Source of the DNA: Brassica napus
Lineage: Eukaryota; Streptophyta; Magnoliopsida; Brassicales; Brassicaceae
Assembly (NCBI RefSeq): GCF_020379485.1
Contig: NC_063438.1
Coordinates: 4,856,024 to 4,920,023 of the forward strand
Reading direction: 5' to 3'
Length of the DNA stretch: 64,000 nt
Shown here: positions 10,840 through 60,551 of the stretch, piece by piece
How the letters are laid out: each line of letters begins with the position of its first letter
Numbering within the stretch: the first letter of the stretch is position 1
Program-made: the position numbers and the translations under genes
The notes under the pieces: model-generated
Databases searched by the model: none
Told to the model about the DNA's origin: nothing
What the model saw: the letters and a program-made list of their open reading frames with translations, nothing else

Positions 10840-11808
10840 TAATATTGTTTAATGTGGTTCTTAAGATAAACACGTTTTTAAAAGACTCCTATCGTTTAAA
10901 CTCTCGTCTCTTGGTAAGGTTCGGTTGCTCAAGTGATTTTGTTGTAGTTTATTTCTTCGAGCAACTACACCATTAACTGTAAACCACATTGACGTTCTCA
11001 AACATCTGCGTTTGTAAGCAATAACTAGTTGTGCATTTATGAATTAATCAATGAAATTGAAGAAACAGAGATCTTTTTTTTTTTTTTTTTTTTTTGAACA
11101 CCGAAGAAACAGAGATCAGCCTATCTGATTCGACATTAATATTGACCAGCTCTTGCTCACGTGAAAATTGGGGTTTCCCAAAAGGAAGGACAGTCGCTCT
11201 GCTTATCTAGACAGCCTATAATAACACTACTGCACATCCAATTTAACTCATAAAATCTTTTGCCCCTCTCTCTCACTCCCCAATTAATGTTAGCTGAATC
11301 TGCTTCTTTCCCAGATATGCAAAACGAGTAAAGGGAACTTTGATTCTATGAGAGTTAACATATGATAACGATAACTACACTCGAAATGAGTTAATGTATG
11401 ATAAAACAATCATTCAACAGAAGTAAACAAATAGTCATTGCTAAGGTAGCATATATGGTAGTAGTTGTTGCTTTGGATGTTCATGATACGTAACCTGACA
11501 AATCTTTGCTCATAAGAAACCGTAGTGCTTTTGTTTTCTGTGACGCATGAAAGAAAGGCATAGAATCTGGAATGTGCAATATTGGGAAGGCCTCTTTGCT
11601 CTTTTGTATTTTGTATAGAATGAAAAGTAGAGAGACAAAAGCATATATTTCTTTCTCATTTTTAAATACTGCACATCTTTCTTTTTTCCTCAACTCGAAG
11701 CATGACACTTTTCTACAAAACTAGCATCACGTGAAATCGACCAAACCTGTTTCCCCTGTGATGCCACCGCTTCCTCCAGCACATGTTCCTTTGACCTTCA
11801 TATGGAGG
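10840..11808. other. spacer downstream of the Pcf11-like gene
   Basis: No gene supported. It contains a poly-T micro-insertion (11059-11117, listed separately). The part near 11730-11808 is probably the 3-prime untranslated region of the minus-strand Pcf11-like gene. Confidence 0.6.
11059..11117. repeat. micro-insertion T(n)GAACACC with 15-bp flanking repeats
   Basis: GAAGAAACAGAGATC occurs at 11059-11073 and 11103-11117 and brackets a 29-bp insert made of a T run followed by GAACACC. On the minus strand this is GGTGTTC plus a poly-A tail between target-site duplications, the signature of an extremely 5-prime-truncated retroposon. Confidence 0.75.
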
Positions 11809-14800
11809 CTACTCGATCATTTCCTAGCAGAATGGAACAACACGTAAATGTGGATTCATGCTGGATTAAAGAATGGAGTTTTAGAACAGCGAGCCTTTAA
11901 AGATAAGTTACCTGTTTGATTGCATTCCCAACTCCCAAGCCCGGTAGAGAACTCTTGGTCAAACAACCTGCATGGACGATCGGTCCATTGGCCTCACTCT
12001 CGTCCGGAGGAATGGCAAGGTAAGAAGCTCCTTTGAACATCCATTGATCCATTTCTTGACTGAAATATTCCTCAAACATCTCTCCACATAATATACATGC
12101 GCTCTGGTTCTCATCAGCAGCTATGGCTGGACCATCCTCAGCTGCACTCTCGGGTTCACTCAGATCTTCCTCACATTCAGGTTCAAGCTCTCCAGATTTC
12201 GCTGCTATCCAGTCATCAGCCTTTGGAAACCAAACCCTACATTTACTGTTCGTGCCATTTAACTCGAGCTTCTTCTTATCGTGCAGCTCCTCCATGTGCC
12301 TGTCAAGTTCTTCTTTTTGCTTAAGGCGAACGCCACAGGAGGTGCAGAGGTGTGGAAGGTCATCAAAAAGACTACTGATCACCGAGGGGTGAAGTTCACG
12401 GATTTTATCTGCTCTGAACTTCAATCCTATGAGGTTTTCGGGTTCCGTTTTTGCTGTTTCTGCTGGTGCTACCTTCGGGGAAGTGGAAGGACCCTTCTTC
12501 ACCAAAACCACTGGCTGAGCATCTGATGGAACCACAGACATAGAACTACTGGTAGAGTGATCAGGACTATGGTCCTGTGAAACGGAAGGAGCCGCACATT
12601 GAGCGCGAGATGGCAGCTCCGTCTTTGAAGCTGGCGGCTCCGGCTTTGAAGCAGATATCAAGCCCTTTGAAACTAAGGAGCTCAAGAGGGACGAAATAGG
12701 ATCTGAGGCCTTACTATTCTCTTTTGATGCCTGTGCTGATGTGACACCAGTAAGAGACACTGCGCCAGCAACTGAAGTTGGCAAAGTCTTATCCTTAGAT
12801 ACTGCTGACAGGGTTAGTGCCCTTGGGTCAGCCCCGTTTTGAGACATCTCCTCCTTGCTTCCACCACAAGTTGCATTATTAGAAAGGATTCCACTCTTCA
12901 TGACAGCTGCCAACAAATCATTCATGTTGGCTTGTCCTCGAGCATTTTCAGCTGTTGACTTAGAGTCAAACTTTTCAACTTGAGATGAATCGGGTAGTTC
13001 AAGCGTATTCGTGTTCTTAAACTGGCTACTTGAAGATAAGGGCCGCACGGAGTCACTTTGAGATTTTGCTGGAAACCGGGAAGCCCTAGGATCACGTTGA
13101 GTGAGGGAGTGAGCTCTTCCAGAATCTTGCTTACTCACATTCTGTTTCGATTGTTTATCTGACACAGGTCCTGAGATTGGCAAGATTCCAGAGCTAGCAA
13201 TCCTAGATTGAGGCTGAATTCCCTTTCTAGCTGCATTTGAGGCTGCACTAATAGAAGGAAAAACTTCTGAATCATGCAAAGATCTAGGAGAAGACGTCCA
13301 GGGGCCAAGAATACTTGAATCTTTTTGCTCTCTGGAATAAGAATTCACCGGATCAAGCCTTGGATCGACAGCTGAATACCTTGGCCGTTTTAAGAGGTGA
13401 TTTTTAGATTCCTACAAGATGGGAAAAGGTTAAAAGACAAGAAACTAAATGAGTTACATCATTATAAAAAGTAATGCAAATTAACTATCATAGCTAACCA
13501 GTCTCTCTGATTCATCTGAAGCCTGAAACTCAATCTTCGGGTTGATAGTCGCCACATCTGTTTCGGATACCCTTGAATGCATGTCCCACATAAACTCTTC
13601 TTCCTCAGAGTTTTTCCAACTATCATAAGGCACGCCTATATTTCTACTGGGACCACTTGATTCCGAATTTTCAAGTCTCGCAGTAGCGTAGTTGGAAACT
13701 CTGCTTTTGGTGTGTAACCCTTCCCTCTGGTCGGAAATCAAATCAGGACCCCTGCTCATAGCTTCGTACCATTGTTTTCCACTCCCATCATCAGTAATCC
13801 TAGGACCAACTTTCTTAACCACTGATCTAGAATTATGCGGTAGATCAGAAGCATATTCATATTCCTCTGATACTGACTCCATATCCTTCTCGTAGAGCGG
13901 TTCACTGAGCGAGTCTTTTTGAGGTCGTCGAATGGTCTGAATTCAACATACAATGTCACAATCAGAAGACAGAGCACATGTTAAGACTGTAACTAAGCCA
14001 AGGAAAAATCATCTTACATTCACTTTCGCTGGACCTGCCCACAAGCCTCCAGATGCTGTGCTCGAAACTCTATCCAGTCTATCTGGATCCCGAGTCAAAT
14101 TGGATGCGATCTCAGGGACATCCGTAACCATTACTTTTGTCTGCAAAATAAAAAACCAAAAAGATACTCAGAAAGCTGTAATGAAGTTATACATTTAGTG
14201 ACCGCAAGTTTACTTTGCTTACCCGTCCTGACTGTTGGAGGCGTTGCCTTTCTAGATATTTGGGATTCACATGGATGCTATTTTGTGGTCGCTGAGATTG
14301 CAGATCAGTTCTGCCAGTGGTAACAGCAGCTGCTGGGCCATCACTTTTAGCATTAAAGCCTAGTTCTTTCTCAATTTGCTGAAGTATTTGCGGATGAAAG
14401 ACTCCTTTCCAGGTTCCAAAAAGATGCCGCATGTTAGAGCGCATAGGAGGGTCAACTTGTCTGTAAGCCTTAACAAAAACCTGCACAGAAGTGAAAAGAG
14501 AGATATCAGATGAAGTTTCTAGGCAAAAGAAACTATATAACTATGACTACCAACAAAACACCAACCTCAGGCAGCCTGGCAGCAAAATACTTAATGTAAT
14601 CTCTTCCAATGTTCTTCACAATGCTGTCCAACAGGTACAACGTTGGCAGCTTCTGATCACTTGGTACCTGCATAATATTCTTCAAATCAGATACCCAGAA
14701 AATGGCAAATTTGATCTCATAGAGAGTAACATCAAGGATTTCCACAATAGAGGGGACACTAAAGGTTAAGAACCAAAAGTCACTAACTTATCTTTAGCTA

Positions 14801-15999: not shown

Positions 16000-16558
16000 C
16001 TTGAGGACTATAATCAATACACGAATCGAAAAAAAGCTACGAGGAATGGCCCTAATTCAAAAATCGATTAATAGAACAGAGCATTACAGCAATCGATAGA
16101 TTGAATTACACATCGATAAGTTACAATCTACAGCTGAGACGTGAGTCTCCGAGAAAGAAGGAGAAGAAGAAGAAGATAAGAAAGCTTCGGATTCGGCAAC
16201 AATGGCAGAGATGTGGACAAGCTCCGATCAATTAGGGTTTGTCAATTGGGGATTTTAAAGAGACGAGTGCAATGAGCTAGTAGGCCCATTTAGTGGCCCA
16301 TTATCCACAAAAATTATTTGGTCCGGTTAAACCATCTGAACCGATTAATTTGGTTCGGGTAAACCAGTAATCAAAAGCTATAACACATTGGTATGGAAAC
16401 GAAACAAGTTAAAGTTGGCATCTACTTGGTTTGGTTCTTGTGACTTCGTATTTGATTACAAACAAAGACACACTAACATGGGAGTTCAAAGACCTGTTAC
16501 AACTCTAATATATTACATTGGCTTGTTGTTGGGTGGTAGGCCGAGTTTGTTTCCTTAC

Positions 16559-22911: not shown

Positions 22912-24883
22912 AAAAAAGGTTAAAAGCATTTTTGGCCTTTAACTTGTGAAGGAGCAGAGGAGATTGTGATCGTGATTTATGTCTTTGTATTTTCGTAAGG
23001 CCGTTGGTTCAAGCGCGTAAAACCGTTTGATTAGCGGGAAAAGTTTTTAAAATTATGTACGAAACACGTCTTCCTTAATCTCTTGGACTATTGGAAAGAT
23101 GAGTTGAAAATATAATAATATATTCATCAACTTGTTATTTTATTCTCGGTGTTTTTTCTCTCTCGTTTCTTTTTCTTCTTCTTTGTATACATATTAACAT
23201 ATAATCTTTTCACCAACAAAAAAAATGTGTGTGTTTTTATGAAACATTTTATTTTTCCTAAACTTTTATACGTCGGTGGATTTTTAGTAGGATTCAAAGT
23301 TTTGACCATACTTTAATTTATCAACTATTTCATAGGTGGAGATATAATAATTTCTAAATATGTTATGTCCTGCCGTATTTGAAAATTATTATAAATAGTT
23401 CAATGTACCTATGATAATTTAGAGATAAACTTAATAAAATAGATTTGTATGTGAAGATGATAAACATATGTTTATTGTTTATTCCTGAAGTTGGGTTTTC
23501 AACTATTGCAAAAAATAAAAATTTGTATTTTGTTTTAAAAGAGAAAACAAATAATTATTTTCAACTAATATGGGAGTGTGTTATAAGTTGATTATTAGAC
23601 TATTATTTGTACATCCACTTAGGCGTATTTAATTCGGGTTTCATTTCGATTTCGATTCATTTTTTGATCTTTTTAGTGGGGTAGGCAAAAAACAAATCCA
23701 AAAAACTGAACCAATCAAATCTGATAAAATGTAAATCCGAACCAAAGTGAACATGACATAATATCTGAATCGATCTTATTCTACAATATTTTAAATTTTG
23801 GATTTTACTTGAACTGAATCCAAACCCAAACAAATATCCAAAAAAATCCAAAAAAACAAAAAACCTTGTACCAAACAAAAAAAGTCAATCCCAATAAATA
23901 CTTTAATAAATATCTATAACAGGAAAAAAGTAAATACAATATTTAGTTTAGTGTATATTTTTGATAATTAGTCAAATATTGAAAATTGTATGTTTTGACA
24001 TTTTCATTTAAAGTCTGATTTTAATTAAGTTTTCTTCAAAAGTTTCAAAATTATGTTTTTAATATTTTAATGATGTTTCATACATTTATAGAGTTCTTAG
24101 TTGTTAGTTTTAACTTATATATGTTTCTTCTTAACAAACACCTTTTAATCATGCCACCAAACCTTTGTTAGTTTTTAAAAAAAAAAAATTATCAAGCTTG
24201 TGAACTTAAATATGTATTTTCGAGTCAAGTATCTGGATACTGAAACCCGAATTAGAACTGAAGCTGAATTTAAACGGGTTCAACCGGTTTCCAATGTGTT
24301 ACTATATTTGAATCGAATCCGAATAAATCCAAACCAACACCAAACTGGAGTTTTATATAAATCAAAACCAAAACCAATTGGACACCCGAACACCCATGCC
24401 ATAATAAAAATATATCTATTTTGGTTTGGTTCGGTTTGTATACTTACAGTTTTTGGCTTATTTGGTTTTATACCAAAAACCGTTACTATATATATATACA
24501 CAAATTATAATATTTTGTGAATTTTGGTTTATATGATTAGAAATTAAATTTCTTAAAACATAAAATATACTTTCAAAATTCTAACTTTTAAATATAATGT
24601 TTTCTGTTTTACTTAACTGTTAAAAATTTAGTAAGAACAAAAAGTTAATATTTATGATAGTTTTTATAATATAAATTAGAAAAGTTAGTGATATCATAAT
24701 AACTATAATTTAACACAAATATCTGTCAAATAAAATATATTTTATTTAATTTCATGAAAGAAAAAAATTAACTTAAATAAAATAACAAACTATAAAAAAA
24801 TGTTTTAAATATCAAGAGCATATCTATAAAATAAAAATGTATACATATGATCAATTGTATTATGTAATTTATATATAACTATA
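22912..24883. other. AT-rich spacer upstream of ROS1
   Basis: No gene seen. About 23640-23880 and 24200-24520 are degenerate, enriched in ccgaaccaaa-like words on opposite strands; frames there are low-complexity and are not called. Confidence 0.6.
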
Positions 24884-26448
24884 AATATTTTAGTTCTTTT
24901 TGATTTTTTGTTTTATTAGTTTATATATCAAAATATATTCATATTTTGTAAACAACATTAATTTGGTTTATTCGATATTACTAAATTCAACCTACTTTTT
25001 CTATTTTATTCAGTTTGATTTTAGTTGGTTCAGTTTTACCGATTGAACACTCATACGTTCACTAGTCTAACCTTAGTTTGGCATTATCTTGATAATATTC
25101 TATTTGATTATATTGTGATTATTAGATTATAATTTTCCAACGATATGGGAGCAGGTTCCAGGGTAATAAGCATGTTCTAGACCCTGAACTATTACACGAA
25201 CAAAATTTGAAACCATCAAACTTTTATATAAATTTTGGCGCCTAAAACTATTACGTGAACTTTAAGTCATAACTAAGCAATCAGTCTTGTCATAGGCTCT
25301 GAAATATTGACTATTAGACTTGTGACCATCTCTAATGTATTTTACTAATATATACAAGTTTATGTTTAAATCTTTATGTAATACTACTCTCTGTTCCAAA
25401 ATACTTGAAGTTTTAGGTTAATGCACAATTATTAAAAAAAAAATCTTGTTTAAAAAGTATGATTAAAATATGAGTTAAAAACTTTTTAACCAATTTCAAA
25501 ATAGACTATAAAGTATCATTGGTTACCCAGTTTTTAATAAAATGAAAACTTACATTGAAATATGAAAGCATCATCTATTTTGAAACATAAAAAACTCTTA
25601 TAAACATTATATATTTTGAAACAAATGGTATACATTTAAGTTTATGTTTCCGAACATAGGTTTAAGCAAGTCATTTTGGTATCTTTGAATGATTTTAGTA
25701 TATTTTGGTTCCTTTTTTTCTTTTTGTATATTTTGATTTTAGTATAAATATTTTAGTTACTTTTTGTATTTTTGGTTTTATTAGTTTATATATCAAACTA
25801 TATTCATATACTATAAATAACATTCATTCAGTTTATTCGATATTACTAAATTCAACCTACTTTTCTATTTTATTTCAGTTTGATTATAATTGGTTCAGTT
25901 TTACCGATTGAACATACCTACGTCCACTAGTCTAACCTTAGTTGGGTATCATATTGATAATATTCTTTTTGATGATATTGTGATGATTAGGTTATAATTT
26001 CACAATGATATGGGAGCAGGTTCCAGGGTAATAAGCATATGCTCTAGACCTTGAACTATTAGACGAACAAAATTTAAAACCATTAAACTATTATATAAAT
26101 TTTGGCGCCTAAAACCAATACATAAACTTTAAGTCATAACCAGACAATCAGTCTTGTCATAGGAACTGAAATATTGACTATTAGACTTTTGACCATTTTC
26201 AATGTATTTTACTAATATATATAAGTTTAGGTTTAAAGTCTTAGAGCAACTCCAATGGTGTTACCCACCATTGGAGTCCTTAGTATTATAATAGTATATT
26301 TTTTGCTTTTTGAATAGTTAAGGATTTGAGTCTAAAATATATGTCCAATGGTGTTACTCAAAATGGAGTCCTTAGGAATTAAAAATTATTAATTTTTTTA
26401 AAAAATTTAATTTTTTTTATTCAATGATTAAAAGCAAACATACAATAA

Positions 26449-27726
26449 TTAAACATCTTCATCATTACCAAACTTGTTCCAAATATTTTCGATTAAATCA
26501 TTTTTCAATGCTTCGTGTGTACGCCTATCTCGAACATGATTCCGTAGACCAAGCATATTACCGAAATGTGAAGGCATGTTGTTAGTATGCTCTACATGTG
26601 AACTTCTGCTCGACTCTCCTTCTTCAAATTCCGATGTATCGTACTGAGTGTAACCACCTCTTTCGTTTTCGACGATCATATTGTGTAGTATGATACACGC
26701 TCTCATAATATTCCCTATTTTTTCCTTGTCCAATGATAGAGCTGGGTTTTTCACTATCGCAAATCGAGCTTGCAATACACCAAAAGCACGTTCCACATCT
26801 TTCCGGGTAGCTTCTTGAACTTTAGCAAATAACGCTGCTTTAGGACCTTGAGGGAGTGTGATGGACTGGATAAATGTTGACCATTTTGGATATATACCGT
26901 CAGTGAGGTAGTAAGCCAAATCATACTGGTGTCCGTTGACCATGTATGTTACCCTTGGAGCGCGGCCTTGGTAAATGTCATCAAAAACAGGTGACCGATC
27001 AAGGACGTTAATATCGTTTAATGTACCTGGAGGACCAAAAAAGGCGTGCCATATCCAAAGATCTTGTGAAGCTACAGCCTCCAAGACAATTGTCGGCTTT
27101 CCCGATCCACGTGTGTACTGTCCTTTCCAAGCTGTTGGGCAATTCTTCCATTCCCAATGCATACAATCGATGCTTCCTATCATCCCCGGAAAGCCGCGTA
27201 TCTCTCCAATATCGAGTAGTCGCTGAAGATCCTCTGGAGTGGGTCTTCGTAGATACTCATTTCCAAATAGTTGTATTATACATTCTGTGAAATTTGTTAA
27301 ACATGAAAGTGATGTGCTTTCACCTAGTCGGAGATATTCGTCGACGGCGTCAGCCGCAGAGCCGTACGCAAGCATACGGATAGCTGCAGTACACTTTTGT
27401 AATGTTGATAGACCTAACCTTCCGACTGCATCTCTTCTTTGTTGAAAAAATGGAGCATTTGCTGAGAGGGTGTCGACAATCCGCATGAATACTTCCTTGC
27501 TCATGCGGAAACGGCGTCTGAATAAATGAGGCGGAAATGTCGGAGCTTCACTAAAATAGTCATTCCATAGACGGCTGTGGCCCGCTTCTCGGTTTCTTTC
27601 GACGTACGCACGTTTCTTTTTTTTTGTAGTTCGATTCTCCAGAATACTGTTGTATGTTTCTTCAAAATATTCATCAAAAGCCTCATTGACAGCCGCATCG
27701 AGTCTTCGGTCGGTTTCATCTGCCAT
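26449..27726 (-). CDS. PIF/Harbinger transposase, DDE intact
   Basis: Uninterrupted frame of 425 residues, the normal length for plant Harbinger transposases. The DDE/RNase H-like nuclease core is complete: Asp187 in GSIDCMHW, Asp238 in GTLNDINVL and Glu312 in RKDVERAFGVLQARF. The family block YYLTDGIYPKW lies between the second and third. The N-terminal part (about 60-130) carries the helix-turn-helix-like region, and the C-terminus has ACIILHNMIVENERGGY. It would cut and paste the element between TTA/TAA duplications, together with the Myb/SANT-like partner encoded just upstream. The start at 27726 gives MADETDRR. No frameshift is seen. Confidence 0.95.
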   Translation of the reverse strand: MADETDRRLDAAVNEAFDEYFEETYNSILENRTTKKKKRAYVERNREAGHSRLWNDYFSEAPTFPPHLFRRRFRMSKEVFMRIVDTLSANAPFFQQRRDAVGRLGLSTLQKCTAAIRMLAYGSAADAVDEYLRLGESTSLSCLTNFTECIIQLFGNEYLRRPTPEDLQRLLDIGEIRGFPGMIGSIDCMHWEWKNCPTAWKGQYTRGSGKPTIVLEAVASQDLWIWHAFFGPPGTLNDINVLDRSPVFDDIYQGRAPRVTYMVNGHQYDLAYYLTDGIYPKWSTFIQSITLPQGPKAALFAKVQEATRKDVERAFGVLQARFAIVKNPALSLDKEKIGNIMRACIILHNMIVENERGGYTQYDTSEFEEGESSRSSHVEHTNNMPSHFGNMLGLRNHVRDRRTHEALKNDLIENIWNKFGNDEDV

Positions 27727-28517
27727 ATTAGGCTATCCTTCCTTCAAACATTATAACAAATAAACGTTTTTATAATTTTTTCTGGGTATATATATTGTTG
27801 TGATCTTGTCGACATAATCAGAACTTATTTTGAAAAACAGCATTATATTAAACAATCTTGTCGACATCCTAACTTCATTTTTTTTTAAAACAGCATTATA
27901 TTAAACAATTGATGGTTCATATTAAACAATTGATGTCACGTTTGTCGACATATATAAATGAAATAATCCTAACTTAATTTTTTTTTAAAACAGCATTATA
28001 TTAAACAATTGATGGTTCATATAATTACCTAACTAATTTGAACTAAACTACTACAATTAACTCATACCTATCGGTGATGAAGATGAAGGTGGGAAGGTTT
28101 CTTCTTTAAAGCTGGGATCGTTGTTGTTGAAACAATTGCAAACGAGATAGCATAAGAGCAAAGGAAATAGATTCCACTAAATCACCATTACATCCGTTTT
28201 TAGAGAGTACAAAGGAAGCAGAAGAGCAAAGGAAATAGCATAACATTTGAGTCTACAAGCAGATTTATAAAGGCAACATACAAACAACCCGTGACATGGT
28301 CTAGTGACATGAAAATACAAACAGAGCATACAAACCCGTGACTTGATACCAGCTTTTGTCTTCAACCCGTGACATCGTCTTGTACTTCACCTGAAACAGA
28401 AGAAATTCACGTGTGTAAGCAAACTCTCAAGCAAACTCTAATGGAAACAGAAGACAAGTTTTTGTTTTAACTAGTCTAATGGAAACAGCTGAAACTTAGG
28501 TTAGAGCTAAACAAACC

Positions 28518-29303
28518 CTACAGCAATTCAGACAGAAGTTTGTTTTTCAGAGCTGATTCCATCTCAGAGAGAGGATCGGGCTTTGTAAGCAAACTCTCAA
28601 GCAAACTCTGCTGGGATATTTTCTTTTTTAACTCCATCAAATTTTCCAGCTTCGCCAACTCCTCCTCTTTTCCAGTTTTCTTCCTCTTGCTACCAGCCTT
28701 TGCAGCCTTAACCCCTATTGGTCGCTCTTCTGGCTCTGGCTCAGGCACTGCCCCTTCACCGTCGGGTTGGGAATCCGCTGGTTTGCGTTTGTCCTTCTCC
28801 AGATATGTTGAGCACCACTTCACATCATGCCGAAGTTCCCTCCACGCATGTTCGAAGTTGAACTTCGATCCCTGGTCATTGGCAAATATATCCAACGCAG
28901 ACTTCATCACATCGTTCTCATTTTGCCCGCTTCTCTGCTCCCTCAGTGCCATGTCGTAACAACCAGCAAACTTGCAAACTCCCTCGTTGATCCTAGCCCA
29001 TCTTTGCTTGCATGGCCCAAGTTCTCGTGGGGCGGTCCCAACCAGTTGAGGACTGGAGTTGTAGTACTCTACAATCCTGTTCCAGAAGGCACCTACCTTT
29101 TGTTCATTACTCACAATGGGGTCTTTGCTGGTGTTGAGCCACGCACCGATGAGGATTAAATCATCTTTCACTGTCCATTTTCTTCTCTCTTTGACACTAG
29201 ACACACCAGAACTTTGGCCGGTAAAGAGAGGAGGGTCGCAGGGGTCCAGATTAACTGGCCCTTGACTCATTACGAGGTTTACATAACCACCGGATCTCGC
29301 CAT
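28518..29303 (-). CDS. Harbinger Myb/SANT-like DNA-binding partner
   Basis: Single-exon frame of 261 residues. A trihelix/SANT-like DNA-binding domain occupies about residues 39-165: RKWTVKDDLILIGAWLNTS, GAFWNRIVEYYN, CKQRWARINEGVCKFAGCYD. It is followed by a Lys/Arg-rich nuclear-localisation-like patch (GSKRKKTGKEEE) and a C-terminal coiled coil (ELAKLENLMELKKKISQQSL). This is the second protein required for PIF/Harbinger transposition; it helps bring the transposase into the nucleus and binds the element ends. Related proteins are often misnamed glutathione S-transferase T3-like in databases. It lies between the transposase and the GRF-like gene, all on the minus strand. Intact. Confidence 0.9.
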   Translation of the reverse strand: MARSGGYVNLVMSQGPVNLDPCDPPLFTGQSSGVSSVKERRKWTVKDDLILIGAWLNTSKDPIVSNEQKVGAFWNRIVEYYNSSPQLVGTAPRELGPCKQRWARINEGVCKFAGCYDMALREQRSGQNENDVMKSALDIFANDQGSKFNFEHAWRELRHDVKWCSTYLEKDKRKPADSQPDGEGAVPEPEPEERPIGVKAAKAGSKRKKTGKEEELAKLENLMELKKKISQQSLLESLLTKPDPLSEMESALKNKLLSELL

Positions 29304-30829: not shown

Positions 30830-31564
30830 ATAAATCCTTCGTTAAGGATTCAACCTCAGCGTAACGTCGGCTTTTATTATTTTTTTAATCTAAAAGCATA
30901 AGGATTAGCGCTAAGAAATGAGTAATATCCCGCGTTGCAGCTGGTCTTATGTAATATTACTCTAAGTTCCAAAATACTTGTAGTTTTAGGTTAATGCAAA
31001 ATTATTTTTAAAAAATTCTTGTTTAAAAAGTATGATTAAAATATGAATTAAAAACTCTTTAACCAATTATAAAATAGACTATGAAATATAATTGGTTACT
31101 CAGTTTTTAATAAAATGAAAACTTACACTGAAATATGAAAACATCATTTATTTTAAAACATAAAAAAACTCTCGTAAATATCATATATTTTGAAATGGAG
31201 GGAGTATATGTAAGTTTTCGTGTAACATAGGTTTAAGCAGAGTCACCTTTTGGTGTCTTTGAATGATTTTAGTATATTTGGAGTATGTTTCATATACTAC
31301 TTTCTAATAGCTAAACCATGTAATTGTAAGTATAGCTCACTTAACGTCTTCCCTTCTGTTTCCAGCACTTTTTCATCTTTAGAATAGTTATAGCTCACCC
31401 TTAAAATATATACTTTGCTTTGATTCTTCAAAACCTTTTTGAATCCAATCTAGTTACTTACCATAAGTCTTACGCCATCAACGCAACATTGTATTTTAAC
31501 CAATCGGGTGGTGGTGATTTGTGTTTTGGTAATAATAAAATTCTGAAACCTTATTTGAGTGAGT

Positions 31565-32987: not shown

Positions 32988-34688
32988 ATTAAAATGTGCT
33001 CTAAGCGGCTAATTAGGACATATGGACTGTATATTTATTTTCAACATTCTTTTTTATCCTTTATGGTTTAGGGTCATAAAAACTTCACTATGTTTGGCCC
33101 CGTACTGAATGGAATAAGCAAAGGCTGAACCGCTCACTTGCAACTTCATCAAAACCAACAGTCTACATAATCCACGAAATATTTTCACATTCAAATTGTT
33201 TTGGGTAAATTTCTAAAGTTCGGTCTCTAGTCTGGACCACTTCGGTGGGGCTAGGATACTCGGTTAGCAAAAACTTCTAAAGTTCGTCCTAAAATAAATA
33301 ATAAAACAAAATATATAAACTGTTGCGAAAGAAAAATAAACTAAAAATCCTTTAATTTCTCACAAGGTCCCCTCTTCATGTGGTAACCGTCGGTGGCAGG
33401 CATCACTTTTTACGCACTGTGTGAGACGTGGACCCAAATGCTCCTCAAAGGCCTCATCTCCTAAGATTCTTTGTTAATATTTACATTTTGTATCAGATTC
33501 GTTTAACTCGCTTATTAAATTATTCAGAATGAAAAAAAAAAGTACTCAGAACTCCAAAGGACAATAAATAATACATTAAATTTTAGGGGATTCGGGACTT
33601 CAATTCTCACCCTACTCTTATCCTCTTGGGCGGCACTGTTAATGGATCTTCTCAGCCACAAAAATATGCAGTAGGTTTCTTTAGAAAAATGTAACGCTAG
33701 TTATTAAATATTGTGATGTCATTAATTTTGTTTTGTTGTCAATATGATATGATCCATATCAACATGGGGAAACTTAATCAATGAGAGAAAGACCATAGTG
33801 ATGTTCTTACCTCTCTCATGCAAACTGAGACAATGCCAAGTGGGAGCCAAATGCCATCTTCCTCTTCTTAGAGAAGGTCACAGGGAACAACACTACACAA
33901 AGTATATACAATGCTTAATTTACTAGTGCATGCCTTTTCCAAACGTACTTTTCCCCATGTCTTTTGAATCATGTATTCATATATAACCACTGTTCTCTTT
34001 CATCCTAATAGATCATTTACTGCATAATGATGTGCAAGAAAGTGTTTCAAGTAAACCACTCAAAAACCGCAAAAGGTCAACCTACCAACTAGAATTTTAA
34101 TTAGTATCTATATATGTATTTGAATAATTTTTAGATAAATGTAATTGTACTAATTAAATTTCAGGTGGATGTTGAATTTTCTAGCATTACGCGCGTATAT
34201 ACAAACTGTAATCAATTTTGTTAGCAACATACAATGTACTAAGGTTTGCATACTCTAACTATTTAGTCAAGTGAAACATGCTTTGGCCTGGACAACCCTG
34301 ATCAAGGATTTATATTGCTAAAAATTTAATAAGTTAAACCGCTTACTTCATACTTGTTAGAACATCTACTTTTTCTTTTCGTTCTTTCATAATTAGTTTC
34401 GTTTCCGTTCACGAGGCATATTAAGGCCATCATCTACCAAACTCATCTTTGAAAGATAAAACAAGATAAAGTGTGCACCTACTATAACATGTATATAATA
34501 CACAACACACGTCGGCTACTGTATTAACATCATGCCTCTTTACATTTTCGTTTCTTTCATTCCTTTAACTTTCTCGTACACTCAAATCTAGAGATGAAGG
34601 ATACTGAAAGAGTTTTGGACTTTTATAAAGAGTAAATCAGGAGTTTTGAGCCCTAGAAACTTGTACTTCTTTACGTCGAGAAAAATAT

Positions 34689-34738
34689 ATATACTCTATT
34701 CTCTTTTTTTTTTTTTGAACACATATACTCTATTCTCT
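34689..34738. repeat. micro-insertion T(12)GAACAC with 16-bp flanking repeats
   Basis: ATATACTCTATTCTCT occurs at 34689-34704 and 34723-34738 around an 18-bp insert of twelve T followed by GAACAC. It has the same layout and end sequence as the site at 11059. Confidence 0.75.
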
Positions 34739-39424: not shown

Positions 39425-39507
39425 TGCAGGCTGTGGGGTTCGAACCCACGCGCACTTATGTGCAGAAGAACTTAAGTCTTCCCCCTTAACCACTCGGGTA
39501 AACCTGC
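39425..39507 (-). tRNA. tRNA-Leu (UAA)
   Basis: Read on the minus strand, the 83-base gene has acceptor GCAGGTT pairing with AGCCTGC, a D-loop CCGAGTGGTTAAGG, anticodon arm GAAGACTTAAGTTCTTC with TAA in the loop, a long variable arm (type II), and the T-arm GTGGGTTCGAACCCCAC. The discriminator is A. These features fit leucine. CCA is not encoded, as expected in a nuclear gene. No intron. Confidence 0.93.
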
Positions 39508-46748: not shown

Positions 46749-46779
<31 letters not shown>

Positions 46780-47742: not shown

Positions 47743-50575
<2,833 letters not shown>

Positions 50576-50683: not shown

Positions 50684-51048
50684 GAGGAATCGAGTAAGGG
50701 AGAGCCGTTGGATTGTTTTAATATGAACCGTTGGATGATGAGTTAGGTTCCAAAGAAGATGACAAAACGATGTGCTGCACGTCTTTTGCAAACCAGGAAA
50801 GGTTTTTCTTTTTTTCCTTTGCTCCTTGTCCAAGTAATCGAATATTCGACTAGCTTTTTTCTTTCCACTGAAATTTCATGCGTCGAATATTCGGCTAGTT
50901 TTACAACTCTAGAAACAAATTAAAGGCAAATCAATATTTGGGTCTTGATTTTATTCCATTTTTGATTTATGTGTAGTTTCCTCTCTCTCTTTTTTGTTAG
51001 CATGTTTCATATCGTTTTTATAGCTAAGAAATATATTTTTCAACATCG

Positions 51049-51338
51049 TTTTTTTTTTTTTGGTAAAATGTTAATATTATACCATTTTCAGTTTTTCACA
51101 ATGTTGAAACAACTTATTACACAGAAAGAAAACAACAACAACACAACTCAAAAAGAAAACACAAGAGCCAACAATAGTAGAACACCTCAAGGTGGTCGGT
51201 AGGAGGTGAAATAAAGAAGCAGGAGCGATGGGCCGTCTGAAGGAGTAGCTGGAAATGATAACAGCCGGTCACGGAGAAGCCTGTCCACAGCCAGATGGGT
51301 TTGTCTTCAGCTAGTTGACACAGAAGTGAAGATTCCAT
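51049..51338 (-). mobile_element. 5-prime-truncated LINE (L1-like) fragment
   Basis: A 290-bp insert is bracketed by TTTTTCAACATCG at 51036-51048 and 51339-51351. On the minus strand it ends in CATTTTACC followed by a poly-A run, and it contains a short open frame (MESSLLCQLAEDKPIWLWTG and onward) resembling LINE 3-prime sequence. This is the pattern of target-primed reverse transcription. Confidence 0.75.
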
Positions 51339-51660
51339 TTTTTCAACATCGTTTTTATAGCTAAGGTGATTTTATTCCATTTTCAATTATGTGTGTGTTT
51401 CCTCTCTCTTTTTTTTTTTAGCATGTTTCATATCGTTTCCATAGCTAAGAAATATATTTTTCAATATCGTTTTTTATAGCTAAGAAATAAGTATATTTTT
51501 CAACATCGTTTTATGTTAAAACTTCACAAGTCTTCTGCTGTATTTTTCGTATTGGGCTTTTTGTGCTCGCTCATAAACCTCTGTAATCAAACACAACAAT
51601 TCAATATTTTAGCCCAAAATTACAGGCCATTTAGTATAACTGTTAAAAGGCGGACATCAC

Positions 51661-51704
51661 AACAATAGTAAAAGGTTACCTACCAAAAACAATAGTAAAA
51701 GGTT
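51661..51704. repeat. micro-insertion ACCTACCAAA with 17-bp flanking repeats
   Basis: AACAATAGTAAAAGGTT occurs at 51661-51677 and 51688-51704 around only ten bases, which end in ACCAAA like the tail junction of the LINE fragment nearby. Confidence 0.7.
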
Positions 51705-51887: not shown

Positions 51888-53113
51888 ATGGCTGATGAAC
51901 AGAACAAGAAGAGCATCGTTGTTGCACCCGAAGATGAGTCCACATGTGACAAAGAAGAAGCAGAACAGGAGACAGAACTGAGTTCTATTCTGGATAAACT
52001 TAGTTTAGAACCTAAGAAAGAGAAGCAGAAGAAGAAACTATTGGTCTTAAGTCTGAGTGGTCTACTTCTTCATAGAGTTCATCGAAGAACTTACCGCAAA
52101 ACTCCCAAGAACAGATCTCCTGATGCTTCTTGTGGCCCAAACCTAGGTAATATATGTTTTTTAATTTCCAATTTTATTATTTTTAATCTACTAATTATAT
52201 TTGTTTTGTTTAGTGTATAAGAGGCCATTTGCTGAAGAGTTCATGAAGTTTATTCTCGAGAGATTTGAAGTTGGGATTTGGTCCTCTGCTTGCGAGTTAG
52301 TCTCTCTTCATTTTTCCATCTCTTAAAATTCAAATTAATTTTCATTTTAATATGTTTGATTCCTTATGGTTTTTGTCTTATAGGAAAAATGTTGATATAG
52401 TTCTAAACATTGTTCTTGAAAATCTTCAAGATAATCTTCTTTTTGTGTGGGTAAGACTTTTATGATATTTGTCTTTTGAACAAAAAAAAGACTTATGATA
52501 TATATGTGAGTATGTGTTCATATTTAAGCATTTGTTGATATACTCTTTTGCTATAGGACCAAGAAGAGTGTACTGACAGTGGAAGTACGACATTACATAA
52601 CAGTGATAAACCTATGTTTTTCAAGGATCTCTCTAAAGTGTTTAAGTACTTCAAAGGCTTCTCTGCTTCAAACACTATCTTCATCGATGATGAACCATAC
52701 AAAGCTCTTCTTAATCCTGTAAAATTACTTTCGATGTAATGTTATTTACTAGTTTAGTTTTTGCTCCTTGCTTGATCTTTATGTGAATGCATGCAGGACA
52801 ATACAGGTGTGTTCCCAGTGAGTTACGATCCTACAGACAAGAACGATGACTTTCTTGGTATATGATCGTTTTATCTTAACTTTTGACGTTTCCATGTCTT
52901 GTCTTTTTTGGTTATGATTGGTTTGGTTTTTTGATCCTGTTAGATCCAGAAGGAGAGTTCTGTTCTTACTTGGATGATATCGCAAGTTCACCGGATGTTC
53001 AAGATTACGTTAAGGAGCATTCTTTTGGCCAGCCCATGATTGATTCTTCTCATCCGGACTGGTCTTTCTACAGCAAAGTCATAAAGGATTATTACCTTGC
53101 ATATGTCTGTTAG
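51888..53113 (+). CDS. HAD/FCP1-like (SCP-type) protein with altered motif I
   Basis: Six exons: 51888-52146, 52214-52295, 52384-52450, 52557-52718, 52797-52857, 52944-53113; 266 residues, all junctions in frame. The order fits the FCP1/SCP-like HAD family: a Lys-rich N-terminus, a motif I region KKKLLVLSLSGLLLHR near residues 50-65, YKRPFAEEFMKFILERFEVG, the motif II-like IWSSACEKNVD, KDLSKVFKYF, and IFIDDEPYKALLNP. In active members motif I reads DxDxT/DxN; here both aspartates are serine (LSLSG), so nucleophile and general acid/base are missing. The protein is probably a non-catalytic or pseudo-phosphatase. Position next to enolase matches At2g36540. It is divergent from the enolase gene, and the third intron carries a micro-insertion. 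Confidence 0.85.
52454..52500. repeat. micro-insertion in a HAD-like intron
   Basis: AGACTTTTATGATA (52454-52467) and AGACTTATGATA (52489-52500) bracket about 21 bases with tcttttgaac and an A run. The flanks differ by a small indel. Confidence 0.55.
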
Positions 53114-53591
53114 TCTAGTTTTATTAATATTTACTCTGTTCTTTAGCTTACTATTGAGTATTGAACACATTTCTAGTAAGAATGTTGAACATGAACACAT
53201 TCTGTTTTCCTTTTCAATTATTTAATCATCTCAAATGTTTTGTTTAAGTTTTAGTAGAGTTAATGATTTTCTGAGATCAAGCGAAAATGAGTTTTAGTCC
53301 ACTGGATTATAACAAAGTGATGATGAAGGCTAAAAAAAAAATATTTTTACCATAAAAATGTTCAAAAGATAAAGGATTATAGTAACACTGAAAATATAAC
53401 TAAAACCACATAATGTCTTGTTTTGCATTTTGCTAGCATCAATGGAGTCTTGTACTCTCCAAATAAACGTTTGTAAGGATCTAATTGACTTAAATTCGGA
53501 TGAGAGTACACGTTAAGTTCAGATCTTAACTTTTCATCAAAAGACAAACGGGATATATGTGTAATACCTATACCCAAACTAAAGAACAAGT
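53114..53591. other. spacer
   Basis: No gene seen between the HAD-like stop and tRNA-Arg; the start is presumably 3-prime UTR. Confidence 0.6.
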
Positions 53592-53664
53592 GCGCCCGTG
53601 GCCTAATGGATAAGGCGTTTGACTTCTAATCAAACGATTGTGGGTTCGAGTCCCACCGGGCGTG
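53592..53664 (+). tRNA. tRNA-Arg (UCU)
   Basis: The 73-base gene shows acceptor GCGCCCG pairing with CGGGCGT, D-arm GGCCTAATGGATAAGGC, anticodon arm TTTGACTTCTAATCAAA with TCT in the loop, and T-arm GTGGGTTCGAGTCCCAC, with discriminator G. No intron and no encoded CCA. Confidence 0.95.
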
Positions 53665-53931
53665 TTATTATTTTCATTTTGTTTTCTCCTTCTCACCATC
53701 CAGCACACATGCACACTTTCTCTCAATCGCTATGGCTCTTCAGCATCACGGTAAAGATTTTAGCAACATTTTGTCGTGTTGGTTCTTGATTATCAGATTT
53801 TGCCAGCTTCTTGAATCTTTGAGGAATGCTGTTTGAGAACAATTCTTGAAAGCTTGCATGAGTAGTGTTATTAGTTTAATTAGTGGTCCCTCTCAGCTTT
53901 GATTGATGGTTAGCGTAATGTTTTGAACTTG

Positions 53932-53976
53932 AAAACATAAAAGAACCAAAGTTAAAAAAAAAAACATAAAAGAACC
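53932..53976. repeat. micro-insertion AAAGTTA(n) with 16-bp flanking repeats
   Basis: AAAACATAAAAGAACC occurs at 53932-53947 and 53961-53976 around a 13-base insert of aaagtt plus an A run. Confidence 0.7.
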
Positions 53977-55512
53977 GGTGTTTGCTTTTGCATCTGTCAA
54001 AGTTTCGATGCTGTTTTTTTTATTCTTCTCGGCTTTGGCAGGTTCCATGTTGTAGCAAACCACAGCAGATTTGGTGTATAGTAGACGGGATGGTGGAAGA
54101 AGGAGATGTACATCAACACTTTTTGCATATACGATATATACTTGGAAGGTAGAAACTGTTTGTCATCTTGATTTGGTTCGTGAATTAGGTTATAGTAAAT
54201 AGCATTGTAAATTAGATCGAGTTTGTTGTTTTTACTTCATACTCCGTTTGGTTCAAGATTCAAGGTGTTTCTAATCCAAGAAAGTGATGTGAAATAAATC
54301 ATTATTCAACACACTCATTTGTCCCACATAACATGATACTGAAAGGACACAACTAAGGAGATACAAGTGGGTACAATACTAATAGGCCTAAATACTAGTA
54401 GTACAAGTTGTGAGAAGCTTGAAAACTGAAATAGATTGGGTTTGACTTATCTAACCTGAAAGACTACAAGGGTCTTGTACTCTTGTTCAATGGCCAGGAC
54501 CATTTCTTTTCTCTGAAAGGGACCATTAGTATTAATTGTTACACAACGTGTATTCTTGTTACTCGAATGTTCATTATCCTATTGAATGCTTGTTTTGATT
54601 ATTTTTCACCATGGATATTGGCAGGCCCTAGCAAGTAAAGCATTAGCTTTAGGCCACAAGATATATAGCCAATTTTAGGGCCACAGTTCATGGAATAGTA
54701 GTTTGGTCCATAGGTTAATTAGTTTGATTAGTCTTCCACATTACCACTCTTCGATCCTCTTCTTGACACGAACATATTTTCAGTTTTGTCATACTCAATG
54801 ATTTTATGCATTTGTATTATTGGTATTAATGATTATGTGTCACTATATATTATTGGTATTTGTATAAAAGGCCACAAAGTTTTAATAATGCTTTAGGCCA
54901 CCTTAAGTTATGGGACGGCACTGGATATTGGAGACAATGACAATTTCGACTTAAATTACCAAAAAGCTAATAATGGCAAAAGGAAGGAAAGTCAGACTAT
55001 GTCTTCACCGGTTTGGCACTTGGCAGTCTCAAGTACATGTTAAAAGAAACTTACAGATTTCACAGTGTTCTCTTCTATTTAGCAAGTATATATATATTTC
55101 AAAAACCATTGACCGTTGGTTTTGGTTTTTAACGAACATGGAGTTTTATCGGTGTAACTAGCAGAGAAAGTCGAGCTAGAAAGAAATGAAATGTGCTTCT
55201 GCTTTATACTAAAATCTTCACCTATGACACAGAGACACACACGCGCATTACTCTTTCTCTCTCTATTGAGCTTCCGTTCTATATAGCTATAGGGTTTACA
55301 TTTATCATTATGGTTTTTAGTTTTTACCATTTACTCACTCTATTTATTACCTTTTTCTAGCTCAATTAATTAGATCGTGACCATCTCCAATCCCAAAGGA
55401 ACTGCAACATATTGAAATGAATCCAATAGATTTTTTTTTTGGAAAAATCTTTTTACATTAATAATTCAATAGGTTAACTCGCCTCATCTATGTAATCAGC
55501 CGTGTTACTCCT

Positions 55513-55553
55513 TTGTTCAATATAATCTTTTTGGTAAAATTGTTCAATATAAT
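55513..55553. repeat. micro-insertion CTTTTTGGTAAAA with 14-bp flanking repeats
   Basis: TTGTTCAATATAAT occurs at 55513-55526 and 55540-55553 around a 13-base insert. On the minus strand the insert is TTTTACC plus an A run, the same end as the LINE fragment at 51049-51338. Confidence 0.75.
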
Positions 55554-56031
55554 ATATAAGCTACTTGTGTAAAAAAAGATTAACAATTCAATAGGGTTTA
55601 CCATTTCATGAATCTACATTTGTTTTTATTTAAGCCTTTATACACCCCAAATCCATATGGAACTCAATGTTGGATTGACATTATAGTTTCATGTCTTTAA
55701 ATTCTGATTTTGTCCGGATAAGCTAATAAAGAATTAAGTTTTCACATTTGAAATGCCATATAGTGTTAGTGGTTTGTTTTAGTGCTTTAATTTCTAGCTT
55801 GATCCAACAATATAAACTCTCGTAACGATCATGATAACTGTTAATATAGTGGTAAGAGCATCTCTTCCTCTATTTTCCTTTTCTCTCATAGAAGAACTCT
55901 AAAACAGAAATATGTTTCTCACCGATGTATAAATACATTTTTATTTTAAAATCTATTTTTTTTTATATATTTTTTTACAACTACGTACCTTTCAGTTGTG
56001 AAATTTGAAAATTATCCCTACTTACTTAACA

Positions 56032-57950
56032 TCCTACTATATAAAAGGGACTAAATCCCTACTTTCTAAGCCTTGCCACATGGGCAAAATATTGTGAACC
56101 AATCAAGATGCCATGTCATCCGGACTTGAGTTTGAGTTTAAAAAAAAATAAGCTATTTTCGGAGCCCATTCGACCCATTTCGAAGCCTATTCCCGAGCCA
56201 CTCTCTCATAAGCATAATCCCTTGTTCTAAACATCCTGTGTTAAATTTTTTTAAAACACTCATATCTTAGAAATAGTTTAGAAAATATCTTTATATAAAT
56301 GTTTTTTTCTTGAATAATATTTAACTATAATTTTTTGTATCTTCTTAACTTTTATAATAAAAATATTGTTTTCAGATAGCAACAAAATATATATGAAAAT
56401 TATCTTGTTTTTCAATTTTTGATAATTTTATTATATTATTTTAGAATCAATTATTTAATATTAATATAACATATAAATTTTATATGATTAAAATAAAATT
56501 CTTTTTAATTATATATAAAATTCATTAAGGGTATTGTTTTAATTAACACATTAGCGAATCAGTTAGAAATTAATAATAAATCAATAACCTATCTAAAAGT
56601 CTAAAACCTAATAAAATATGACAAATAAGAAAAACTAACTAAATTTTAATATAAAATAGAAATTTAATATTACTAAAATAAAATTTATTTTTTTAATATA
56701 TATATAATATTAATTAAGGGTATTTTTTTAATTAATAAATTAGTGACTTAGCTAAAAATAAATAATAAATCAATGATTTAGCTAAAACCTAATAAAAACA
56801 TGACAAATAAGCAAATTTACTAAAATTATGGATAATATGAAATATGATTGATTCTTTAATACAAAATTAAAATAAGAGTTTTGTTAAATCAAACATAAGT
56901 TTGTTGTATCGGTGTTACAAAAAAAAAACAATAATTAATAGTGTCGTAGGAATTATGTATTTTCCATTAGCGAATAAAATTGAAGCAGATTGTTGGAGGA
57001 TATCTCAACGTATAGACGAGATTATGGAGATTGATATGGGAGTTGAAGTAACGGACACAACTGTTCCTCCGCAAAGAAACGCTCTTGCTAGACATCCTGG
57101 ATAAAATGAAAGAGATATATATGAACTTGGCTTTGTGTTAATGGATGGTGACTTTCCAATGCTGTTTGGAGCAAGAGCCAATATACACGCACCAAATCAC
57201 CACTGCAAGCGGAAGCTGAAGGTTTGCTATGGGCAATGCAAGTGATACTGAAGTTTGGACACAAAGAGATAGTCTTTCAATCAACTGTGAACAACTGGTT
57301 ATACTCATTCAAAAGGAGGAAGATTGGCCTGCTTTGGACTCGGAGCTAGACGAAATACATGCTGTATCTAAATAATTTTCTGAACTTTCTATTGCTTATA
57401 TTCTTAGATCTTTAAAATTCTGTACGAATAGCCTAGCAAAAGGTGTCCGATCACGCGCATCTCGATCAGCTTTTGTAAACCCTTTTGCACCAAGTTGGCT
57501 AGCCCCACAAGTTAGCATGAGGGTGCCAAAAAAGAGAATAAAGTTGAAAGTGAAACTAAATATTCCAATGAACAAATTTATCAGAAGTTCATATTTATGT
57601 GGATGTCTATATGGGACAAACAATTTTTTTTAGACAATTATAGAATGTAGTCACGAAAAATCAATCTTAAAATATATAATTAAAAAAAAACCATTTAAAC
57701 AAATCATCAAAATTTTCAATATTACAGCAAATAAGAATATAAAGACCAACTATATTCTCTTCATGTATAATGTGTTGTGGTAAGATTCAAAAAAATTAAC
57801 TTACTTTACAGTAAGGAAAATTTAGATTTTTAATTCCAAATTTACAGTAAAAACATAACATTTTATAAAACTAAACAATTGACATAATAGTATAAAAATA
57901 TAAAAAAAAAATTAAAATACTATCCGCGCGTAGCGCGGACAAGGACCTAG
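56032..57950 (+). mobile_element. Helitron, 1.9 kb, with captured RNase H-like sequence
   Basis: The 5-prime end A/TCCTACTATATAAAAGGG at 56032 shares its opening with the Helitron at 35520. The 3-prime end has hairpin CCGCGCGTAGCGCGG (about 57924-57938) and CTAG at 57947-57950 followed by T. Part of the interior is protein-derived debris (listed separately); no RepHel helicase is present. Confidence 0.85.
57140..57520 (+). pseudogene. RNase H-like (RVT_3) fragment inside a Helitron
   Basis: Across shifting frames the sequence reads AEAEGLLWAMQVILKFGHKE, then CEQLVILIQKEEDWPALDSE, then SLAKGVRSRASRSAFVNPFA and PSWLAPQV. This is the plant RNase H-like domain found in non-LTR reverse-transcriptase genes and their domesticated relatives. 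Frameshifts and stops (for example a TAA after HAVSK) show that it is non-functional. It lies wholly within the Helitron, so capture or an earlier insertion into the element is inferred. Confidence 0.75.
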
Positions 57951-60551
57951 TATTCATAAAAGTATAATATTATTTAAACTATATTTATTATATAAAGGGT
58001 ACATTATACAAAAATAATGAAACAAAGTAGACATTATATATTATGTAAACAAAAAATTATGTCTCTATTTTGTATAAAGCATTTATATTTATCAACTAAG
58101 TATTTATTTTAGTTATAGTTATAAAAAGCTAAAAGCTTAAAGACTATTATAAAATAAAATAAAAAACTATGAATCTATAATAGATGTATAATATTTGCTG
58201 TTACATACATAAAAATATCAATTTATATTTTAGGAGAGAAAAATATACATGAATTCATATACATTCTTTTATTGTAGCATTTAGAATCAAAAATATCAAT
58301 GGGTCGAAGATGCTATAAGAAAATTGTTTGCTTTCGGCTTTTGGCGATTTAACCACAAACCTACGAGTTTGGATCTAGTTTGTCACCGTATAATTCGTTC
58401 AAAGAACGTTAAACTGCTGAAATTATTTCTCTGATCTAGTAAAAACTCTTTTCAGCATGAATATCGATGAGCTCCCTAATAATACTGCAACGGCTGGGAA
58501 AATAAGTCATGACCTTTTCTATCAAAAACATCTTAGTCTTCTGATCTAGTCTTTCAAGAGGTGCGCATAGGTTCAGATAAGCTACATTTATCTATAGGAA
58601 TACGGGAAATAGAGAGCGAGAGAGTATTAAAATGCCATCTACTTCCTCTAGCTTTGAAAAAAAAAAAGATATCAATATTGAGTCTACAGAACAATAATCT
58701 CATGAGTCATGAGCATAATTTAGTTACATATATTGCATGTTCAAAAGTTCTCGGCCTGTTTTCAAATCAAGCGCCTAAGTAGTTATCAAAGGGCCATGTA
58801 TACCAATCAACAACTTGAGTTTTTCAAGCTGGACCAGCTCGACAACATTCCAGTCGCTCACAAAGATTAATTAGTTTGATAAAGACATTTGAAAATAAAA
58901 ACACGTTGCATCAGTCTCTAATTTAACACCGGATCAGATATTTCAACATTACACAAAACTCGTAGATCGATGATACTATTTTCACAACCTAGTGAACTGT
59001 GCTCCGAATTTCTGTCAGTAATAGAATTGGACCTTTCTCAGCTCTGATCTTTCTGTTTTGAGTAGTAGCACTCCTGCAGCTTCACAGTGTTAAATAAAAG
59101 ACTATAGGGGGCCACTTACACAAATACATATAAAGAGATGAAACTGGGAGGCTATGTATATTGATTGAGAGTAGGAGTTTGAATTGGTATTTGTCAGGTC
59201 CGATTTAGAGATTGATTAAGGTAGAGAGAGTGATAGACATGTGTACAAAAGTAGAATCTGGACCATTCTCTTTTCATCTATTTTCCCTCTATATGAAACT
59301 GTTCCTTTTCTCAACTCACTGACTTCTTTAATTTTTCATATACTAATATTCACATTAACTATTTTGTCGACATTATATCGACACTAACTATTGATCACCA
59401 ATTACTTACTTTTTTCTACTTTTTTAAAAGGCTTTGAATACTCATTTTTCTATGTGATTTACCATACACGTATATGAAACACAAGTGTTAGTTTTTGTTT
59501 GTAATCCAAACACATTCTTATAAACGTCGCCAAAACTGAAGGTTATAAAATATAGAGTTTTAACTTAATTAAAGTCATCGATTCAATCCAATAATACCCC
59601 TTTAGCTTTTTTTTTTCTGAACACCAATACCCCTTTAGCTTTTTTTTTTCTGAACACCAATACCCCTTTAGCTATTATCTTAAAATCTGCAGTTGTTTCA
59701 GTACGATTCAGTTGGCATATTTTTTTTCTCATGTTTTGTTAGGGAGGAGACATGCACACGCAGAGAAACACATTTTTAGCATCTTTTGTGACAGATATCA
59801 TGTGAAAATTCTAACAACATGTAAATTCTAACTACATGTAGTTTAGCAAAAAAAAAAACTTTTATATCATTATTGAAATAATTAATAAATATTAACACAT
59901 ATTTTAACCTTTTGATTTTAGGCATAACTTTTAGTTTTTTTTTACCGTCTACTAACCAATGTAATATACATGCGATTTTATCACCCAAAATGTCCATCAA
60001 ATATTGCGATTTTGGTTTCTTAATTTTTCATTAAATTTAAAATATTTAGAATTACTCGTTGGCCCATAAAATATATCCAATAAACTATTTTATCACCCAA
60101 AATGTCAATCAAATATTGATAACTATATATGTTGTACGGCTCTGTCATCTACACTAACACTAACCACACTTTTGTTTCCTAACATGTACTTACTGCCATT
60201 AGTTGAATCCTATGTTTTTTTTTGTGTGTTAAAGCCTAAATGGAGAAAGTAGGAAACCATTCATTACTTAGCATATTTGATCTATCTCTTTACTTAACAT
60301 TCAACAGTCAACAGTCAACACTCAACAGTGACTCAATTAATTACAAGAGGTTAAAATCAGAAGACCTAGGGGGCTTTTCAACAATATTTACTTACGCAAA
60401 TACATGTAGTAACATGTCCATAAATATACACAACCTACACTCCAAGTTCCAGATCAAACCATAAGTTACTCATTTCTTTGCTTGGCTAAAACGTTGTCTC
60501 TTGGAACACATTGTTGTATGCAGAAATAGGCAAAAGAAAAAAAAAAGGAAA
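57951..60551. other. gene-poor spacer and HB22 upstream region
   Basis: No gene supported; frames at 58561-58782 and 60240-60464 have no domain. It includes the 33-bp repeat at 59593. The last several hundred bases are presumably the HB22 promoter; a tandem tcaacagtcaacagtcaaca run lies at about 60299-60325. Confidence 0.55.
59593..59673. repeat. doubled micro-insertion, 33-bp period
   Basis: AATACCCCTTTAGCT occurs three times (59593-59607, 59626-59640, 59659-59673), separated by two identical 18-base inserts of a T run plus CTGAACACC. The insert matches the T(n)GAACAC type at 11059 and 34689. A later tandem duplication of one insertion plus one flank explains the third copy. Confidence 0.8.

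Follow-up and report, generated by a model that had tools for sequence, protein, structure and literature searches.

Poly(A) stubs inside exact target duplications in Brassica napus: a probable few-nucleotide product of LINE machinery

What process leaves an A or T run and a handful of other bases between two exact copies of a short target? The question is raised by a window of 64,000 nt (the whole stretch of DNA that was analysed), plant DNA with 34.7% GC by base counts. An earlier note had described seven sites of one layout and read their flanks as target duplications made by a LINE endonuclease. Six of the seven have exact flanking repeats of 14-17 bp, lengths that agree with this reading. 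The seventh, at 52454, has an imperfect repeat (AGACTTTTATGATA versus AGACTTATGATA) and was dropped as being at chance level, because by chance 0.32 such one-gap repeats would occur in a window, where one is seen. At the six sites, the insert takes the form X-A(n), on either strand:

11059..11117, minus strand: stub, T22GAACACC (GGTGTTC-A22 in sense), between 15-bp target copies at 11059-11073 and 11103-11117

34689..34738, minus strand: stub, T12GAACAC (GTGTTC-A12/13 in sense), between 16-bp target copies at 34689-34704 and 34723-34738

51661..51704, plus strand: stub; 17-bp target duplication (51661-51677, 51688-51704) around ACCTACCAAA, with a tail of A5 counting shared A's

53932..53976, plus strand: stub; 16-bp target duplication (53932-53947, 53961-53976) around AAAGTTAAAAAAA, with an A-run of 11 including shared A's

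55513..55553, minus strand: stub, CTTTTTGGTAAAA (TTTTACC-A5-G in sense), between 14-bp target copies at 55513-55526 and 55540-55553

59593..59673, minus strand: stub turned 33-bp tandem repeat; 15-bp target three times, inserts twice (in sense GGTGTTCAG-A9/10)

The last site holds 2.5 copies of its 33-bp unit, and its target is present three times because this unit is in tandem. Excision footprints of DNA transposons were rejected as a source of the stubs, as duplications of 14-17 bp are too long for the families familiar to us.

Two end words recur. The word T(n)GAACAC, claimed for three sites, is confirmed on reading them. A second proposed junction, TTTTACC-A(n) or ACC-A(n), stands only in part: the stub at 55513 ends in TTTTACC-A(n), which is also the 3' end of a longer insert, and 51661 shares no more than TACC-A5. 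The longer insert is as follows:

51036..51356, minus strand: longer retro-insert of ~300 bp, with ~285 nt plus A-tail, ending ...TTAACATTTTACC-A(n)

It is flanked by AAAAACGATGTTGAAAAA, 18 bp that lie within a locally repeated stretch. A protein search with its open frame (a 49-aa reading) found no homologue; this reading may resemble a LINE C-terminus, and as far as proteins go the insert is a putative LINE copy. Three further inserts were seen in the window. At 33211-33286 (plus strand), 46 nt ending in GGTTAGC-A5 lie inside an exact 12-bp duplication, possibly as a longer truncation product, with no Rfam match at the gathering score. Candidate retro-inserts with one-mismatch duplications are found at 50838-50898 (minus strand, 16 bp) and at 55457-55595 (plus strand, 17 bp), the latter enclosing the 55513 stub.

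The window has other contents. Direct repeats of ~520 bp at 24860-25374 and 25722-26242, 88% identical and ~350 bp apart, possibly belong to an LTR-type element; an 87% copy of the stretch between them lies at 30947-31279. A 427-codon frame at 26449-27732 (minus strand) matches the plant transposase families Plant_tran and DDE_Tnp_4, and a frame at 28518-29303 (minus strand) weakly matches NAM-associated, below the cut-off; we take the two for a PIF/Harbinger pair. Two tRNA genes, at 53592-53664 (plus strand) and 39425-39507 (minus strand), score above the Rfam gathering score, and the window also encodes a CBS-PB1 protein.

Can chance account for the stubs? When the count takes exact repeats of at least 12 bp whose insert holds an A/T run of at least 5, five stubs in retroposon polarity are observed against 0.08 expected from order-3 Markov sequence. 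In the wrong polarity there are two against 0.05 expected, at 51441 and 27834, each of them in a tandem array. Looser limits (10 bp, run of 4) give 8 versus 0.88 in retroposon polarity and 4 versus 0.80 in the wrong one. A tolerant scan of the window finds 13 matches against 0.16 expected and 7 in a reversed-sequence control; tandem arrays hold, by reading, six of these 13 and six of the seven control matches, which leaves 7 versus 1. The window is also rich in short direct repeats whatever their kind, 16 being observed against 0.3-0.8 expected, and 11 of the 16 are not poly(A) stubs. Since direct repeats of all kinds exceed chance, shuffles alone are no proof of a mechanism and point only to something local.

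Such a local process could work without reverse transcription, by slippage, by filler DNA or by patch repair at staggered breaks, and the 11 repeats that are not stubs speak for it. Vaughn and Bennetzen reportedly described patch-repair tandem duplications in plant genomes in 2014; these resemble the stubs in having short duplicated flanks and in being common in plants. We know of neither a shared spacer word nor a poly(A) polarity in that class. Tandem duplications are also the commonest insertions in a rice comparison (PMC7971508).

The end words recur beyond the window. In the assembly of 997,428,009 bases, T13GAACAC occurs 464 times, against 34 for the pattern read backwards. Of the 464 places listed, the first 100 were used, 98 of them fetched and two lying in the window; after eight were removed as duplicates by their 30 nt upstream, 92 distinct loci remain. 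Stubs make up 66 of the 92 and thus outnumber longer copies among these young GTGTTC-ended inserts, a share valid for this sample only, in which all A-tails are at least 13 long and the contigs are the first listed. The rule that defines a stub passes three of 368 mismatched flank pairs. Target duplications of the 66 measure 10-19 bp, and their unique part is 6 nt in 23, 7 nt in 20, 8 nt in 16 and 9-14 nt in seven. The sharply placed stop, with 6-8 unique nt in 59 of 66, and the stub majority had not been predicted by the earlier note.

In 13 of the 92 loci, the duplication lies further upstream. Two of these, both outside the 66, are L021, which has an interrupted tail and is a stub by eye, and L083, a tandem copy. 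The other 11 have inserts of ~67 nt (one), 164-186 nt (three) and 1036-1389 nt (seven), where the duplications of the kilobase elements are putative, being matches of 12-16 bp that lie beyond the 700 bases upstream covered by the mismatched-pair control. The last 13 loci have no duplication within 1.4 kb by the score used; they include L022, a 24-nt insert with a 10-bp duplication that is likewise kept outside the 66, as is L092, a possible stub with a 7-bp match. Simple inserts of 15-60 nt are nearly missing from this sample.

The targets of the 66 stubs begin in a characteristic way. T precedes the target in 73%, and its first base is A in 73% and its second in 61%. An A before the target is nearly excluded by the way in which the repeat was extended; the usable signal is the share of T among non-A bases, 75% against 48% by composition. 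The first nicks in stubs thus read T|AA.

Patch repair is extremely improbable in the face of these features. The words in the spacers are found again at hundreds of distant loci, in a single polarity, and have no especially close copy nearby, which rejects local templating; target copies are not adjacent and spacers are not templated from the neighbourhood, and the targets start T|AA. At 59593, the tandem duplication that came later is accounted for by slippage.

Retro-insertion calls for donors with the same 3' end. Five long GTGTTC-ended loci, picked by eye from 22 long loci, were scanned with profiles and all five have frames with LINE-type domains: zf-RVT plus RVT_3 in L012 and L067, and RVT_3 in L030, L031 and L045. 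The pair of zf-RVT and RVT_3 is typical of plant L1-type LINEs. All GTGTTC donors were selected by their end word. Eight other loci (L001, L002, L015, L020, L026, L044, L057 and L088) are related retroposons ending in GTGTTC-A(n); six of them have 12-16 bp duplications 1.2-1.4 kb apart, and open frames of 357-456 codons from five matched no Pfam family.

The second end word, unrelated to the first, behaves similarly in its stubs and differently in its proportions. TTTTACC-A13 is found 567 times genome-wide against 15 in the control. Among 19 loci, taken from 24 places listed on contig C1, there are six clean stubs of 7-8 nt, two ambiguous cases in simple repeats and 11 longer loci, nine of which have a GGTA...TTTTACC end like that of the 51036-51356 insert. 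Long copies are here commoner than stubs (11 versus 6 of 19), opposite to GTGTTC. L108 and L116 pass the numerical rule for stubs, yet are classed as long since their upstream sequence is the shared end. L109 and L112 end in TTAACATTTTACC-A(n) with upstream sequence that differs from the LINE-like loci, and they are perhaps other elements using the same tail. The suspicion of a tail shared between a SINE and a LINE at these two loci was set aside as a weak lead, with neither a target duplication nor a tRNA-like body shown. Scans of viral contigs for the two end words gave no match for either.

Stubs with other words emerge when the end is not selected. A scan of 294 kb of fetched loci and the 64-kb window (about 358 kb) with a tail cut of A6, which excludes the A5 tails of 51661 and 55513, gave 58 rows, from which three GTGTTC stubs with over-long target calls were dropped. 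In the remaining 55 simple inserts (L034 and L064 are near-identical, and W56000 is part of the 59593 repeat), the unique part measures 0-4 nt in two, 5-9 nt in 22, 10-19 nt in 11, 20-99 nt in 10 and 100-400 nt in 10; the last two classes, which may include chance or tandem matches, make the gap between short and long products less clean here. The window's own 53932 is one of the 22. The short words vary (i.e. GTTGAC(C), TTGATC(C), TTTCTC, TACC and others). Among 36 inserts of up to 20 nt, the target starts with A in 27, its second base is A in 27, T precedes it in 15, and C stands just before the tail in 21. Three Markov copies of the 294 kb contain 0, 0 and 1 match. As to polarity, simple inserts of 5-14 nt number 75 forward against one in reversed sequence; simple matches of all sizes number 108 and 15, with tandem rows set aside (6 forward, 9 reversed). 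Varied-word stubs of 5-9 nt amount to ~1 per 16 kb of sampled sequence, where the loci are no random sample and scaling to the genome is a guess.

Whether each stub came by insertion can be read in homoeologous stretches, found in contigs C1223 and C348 of the same assembly. At all four sites tested (11059, 34689, 51661 and 59593), the stub is absent from at least one homoeolog, as expected of single insertions, and at two of the four (11059 and 59593) the empty site is letter-exact, the other two having further small differences. At 11059, both contigs have exactly joined flanks with one target copy; the same holds at 59593, with no insert. Because the empty site has one target copy there and the window has three, the simplest path at 59593 would begin with one insertion, after which the 33-bp unit was duplicated in tandem. 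At 34689, C348 lacks the stub and has another small indel, hence is not letter-exact, and C1223 carries the stub, with 100% identity to the window over 551 bases. At 51661, C348 lacks the stub and its target has diverged; C1223 probably carries it, as its match there is only 4 bases shorter. C1223 is thus identical to the window at 34689, stub included, and yet lacks the stubs at 11059 and 59593, like C348. It may be a mosaic of two subgenomes, through homoeologous exchange or assembly.

Long elements might also have been inserted and then have lost their bodies, leaving duplications, tail and a few bases. A high loss of SINEs in the Brassicaceae is reported, to judge by a title cited in PMC3747384, and 59593 makes plain that such loci change by tandem duplication. 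In 59 of 66 cases, the deletion would have to run from exactly the first target copy to a point 6-8 nt short of the tail, and for another end to one at 7-8 nt; moreover, homoeologs without the element exist at four sites. Later loss of bodies is therefore very improbable.

Collectively, insertion into targets that become duplicated, the polarity of the inserts, the preferred nick, 3' ends common to LINE-type elements and a narrow product size point to one process. The stubs are very probably single retro-insertions by LINE machinery, formed by target-primed reverse transcription that probably switched to the top strand ~7 nt past the tail. In such a process, the endonuclease would nick the target at T|AA, and an RNA, from a LINE or from a retroposon that uses LINE machinery, would prime on the nick with its poly(A) tail. 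The enzyme would then copy this tail and ~6-9 nt of the 3' end; extension would cease there, and the cDNA would be joined to the top strand, which has been cut by then, giving target duplication, 6-9 nt, A(n) and target duplication. The stop may be a switch to second-strand synthesis that comes too early, or a jump to another template, possibly with the RNA just upstream still in the grip of the enzyme or of a bound protein. A recognisable element body, as expected of a LINE copy, is lacking, with only 6-9 nt left in most stubs; the stubs are products of LINE machinery and not LINE copies in the usual sense.

The narrow size has a second possible origin. With no abort at all, the enzyme may have copied to its end an RNA already trimmed to poly(A) and ~7 nt, such as a decay remnant that poly(A)-binding protein or the enzyme itself had shielded. 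A size that is narrow near the tail and similar across end words would fit a protein footprint. Against it, the two commonest ends are retroelement ends and not a spread of host mRNA ends, even if a trimmed LINE RNA would look alike. A trimmed template is hence a minority possibility, unlikely and still to be reckoned with. Given LINE machinery, an abort or early switch is the favoured account, held with reasonable confidence. That reverse transcription ended within about ten bases of the tail, as the earlier note had proposed, is supported by the duplications, the polarity, T|AA, the stub-free homoeologs at four of four sites and the donors with LINE domains.

What sets the boundary of the early stop? 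An RNA hairpin at the TTTTACC end was rejected as its cause (z -0.77; 43 of 200 shuffles fold as well). Because the stop distance is similar across ends and the TTTTACC end folds like its shuffles, a boundary set by a protein seems likelier than one set by sequence. A discrete decision point ~7 nt past the poly(A) tail has, in our estimate, an even chance of being right: the enzyme would copy the tail and the last bases that it does not itself hold, then either release the 3' end, leading to a long copy, or jump to the nicked top strand, leading to a stub.

Truncation of LINEs is standard knowledge, and it usually gives a broad spread of lengths. BrLINE1-RUP, a 130-bp 5'-truncated piece of an L1-clade LINE in BrCER2 of Brassica rapa, comes from machinery of the same kind and has kept the 3' end and poly(A) while losing its 5' part; it differs (PMC10368883) by its 130 bp, a 40-bp deletion and the lack of a target duplication, where the stubs have 6-9 nt and a clean duplication. 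In human NF1 exon 25, a poly(T) of ~120 bp may, in the view of its authors, be what is left of a severely truncated Alu or L1 or of a processed pseudogene (PMC3219598). It is like the stubs in being endonuclease-dependent and almost tail only, and unlike them in being a single case with a long tail, in contrast to the stubs, whose tails are short, whose piece of 3' end is fixed at 6-9 nt and whose loci number in the hundreds. Partial copies of the Sadhu retroposon in Arabidopsis are described as consistent with abortive retrotransposition (PMC2848041). They share with the stubs a poly(A), target duplications of 7-16 bp, a T before the target and A's at its start, and a similar nick preference is given there for SINEs from a study that it cites. 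Sadhu partial copies were found via similarity to the element, by which a few-nucleotide class is unfindable. Truncation and tail-only inserts are thus known, and the novelty would be an abundant product of fixed few-nucleotide size, which was not found in literature searches: on the tail-only class, none of the titles listed described inserts of a few nucleotides as a discrete and abundant group, which is no proof of absence, and a text search for GTGTTC-A8 gave nothing related.

The stubs would serve as clean insertion markers, as at 11059 where both homoeologous contigs lack the stub, and they would seed tandem repeats, as at 59593. A sharp product of 6-9 nt that stands largely clear of the long copies indicates a specific early step of target-primed reverse transcription, one that is testable in vitro. 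Stubs would count the attempts of LINEs, and not only their successes, and would show where the endonuclease cuts. Since almost no element remains, similarity-based masking should miss them, and if the decision-point reading is true, LINE attempts that failed may have left an unmasked record throughout the genome.
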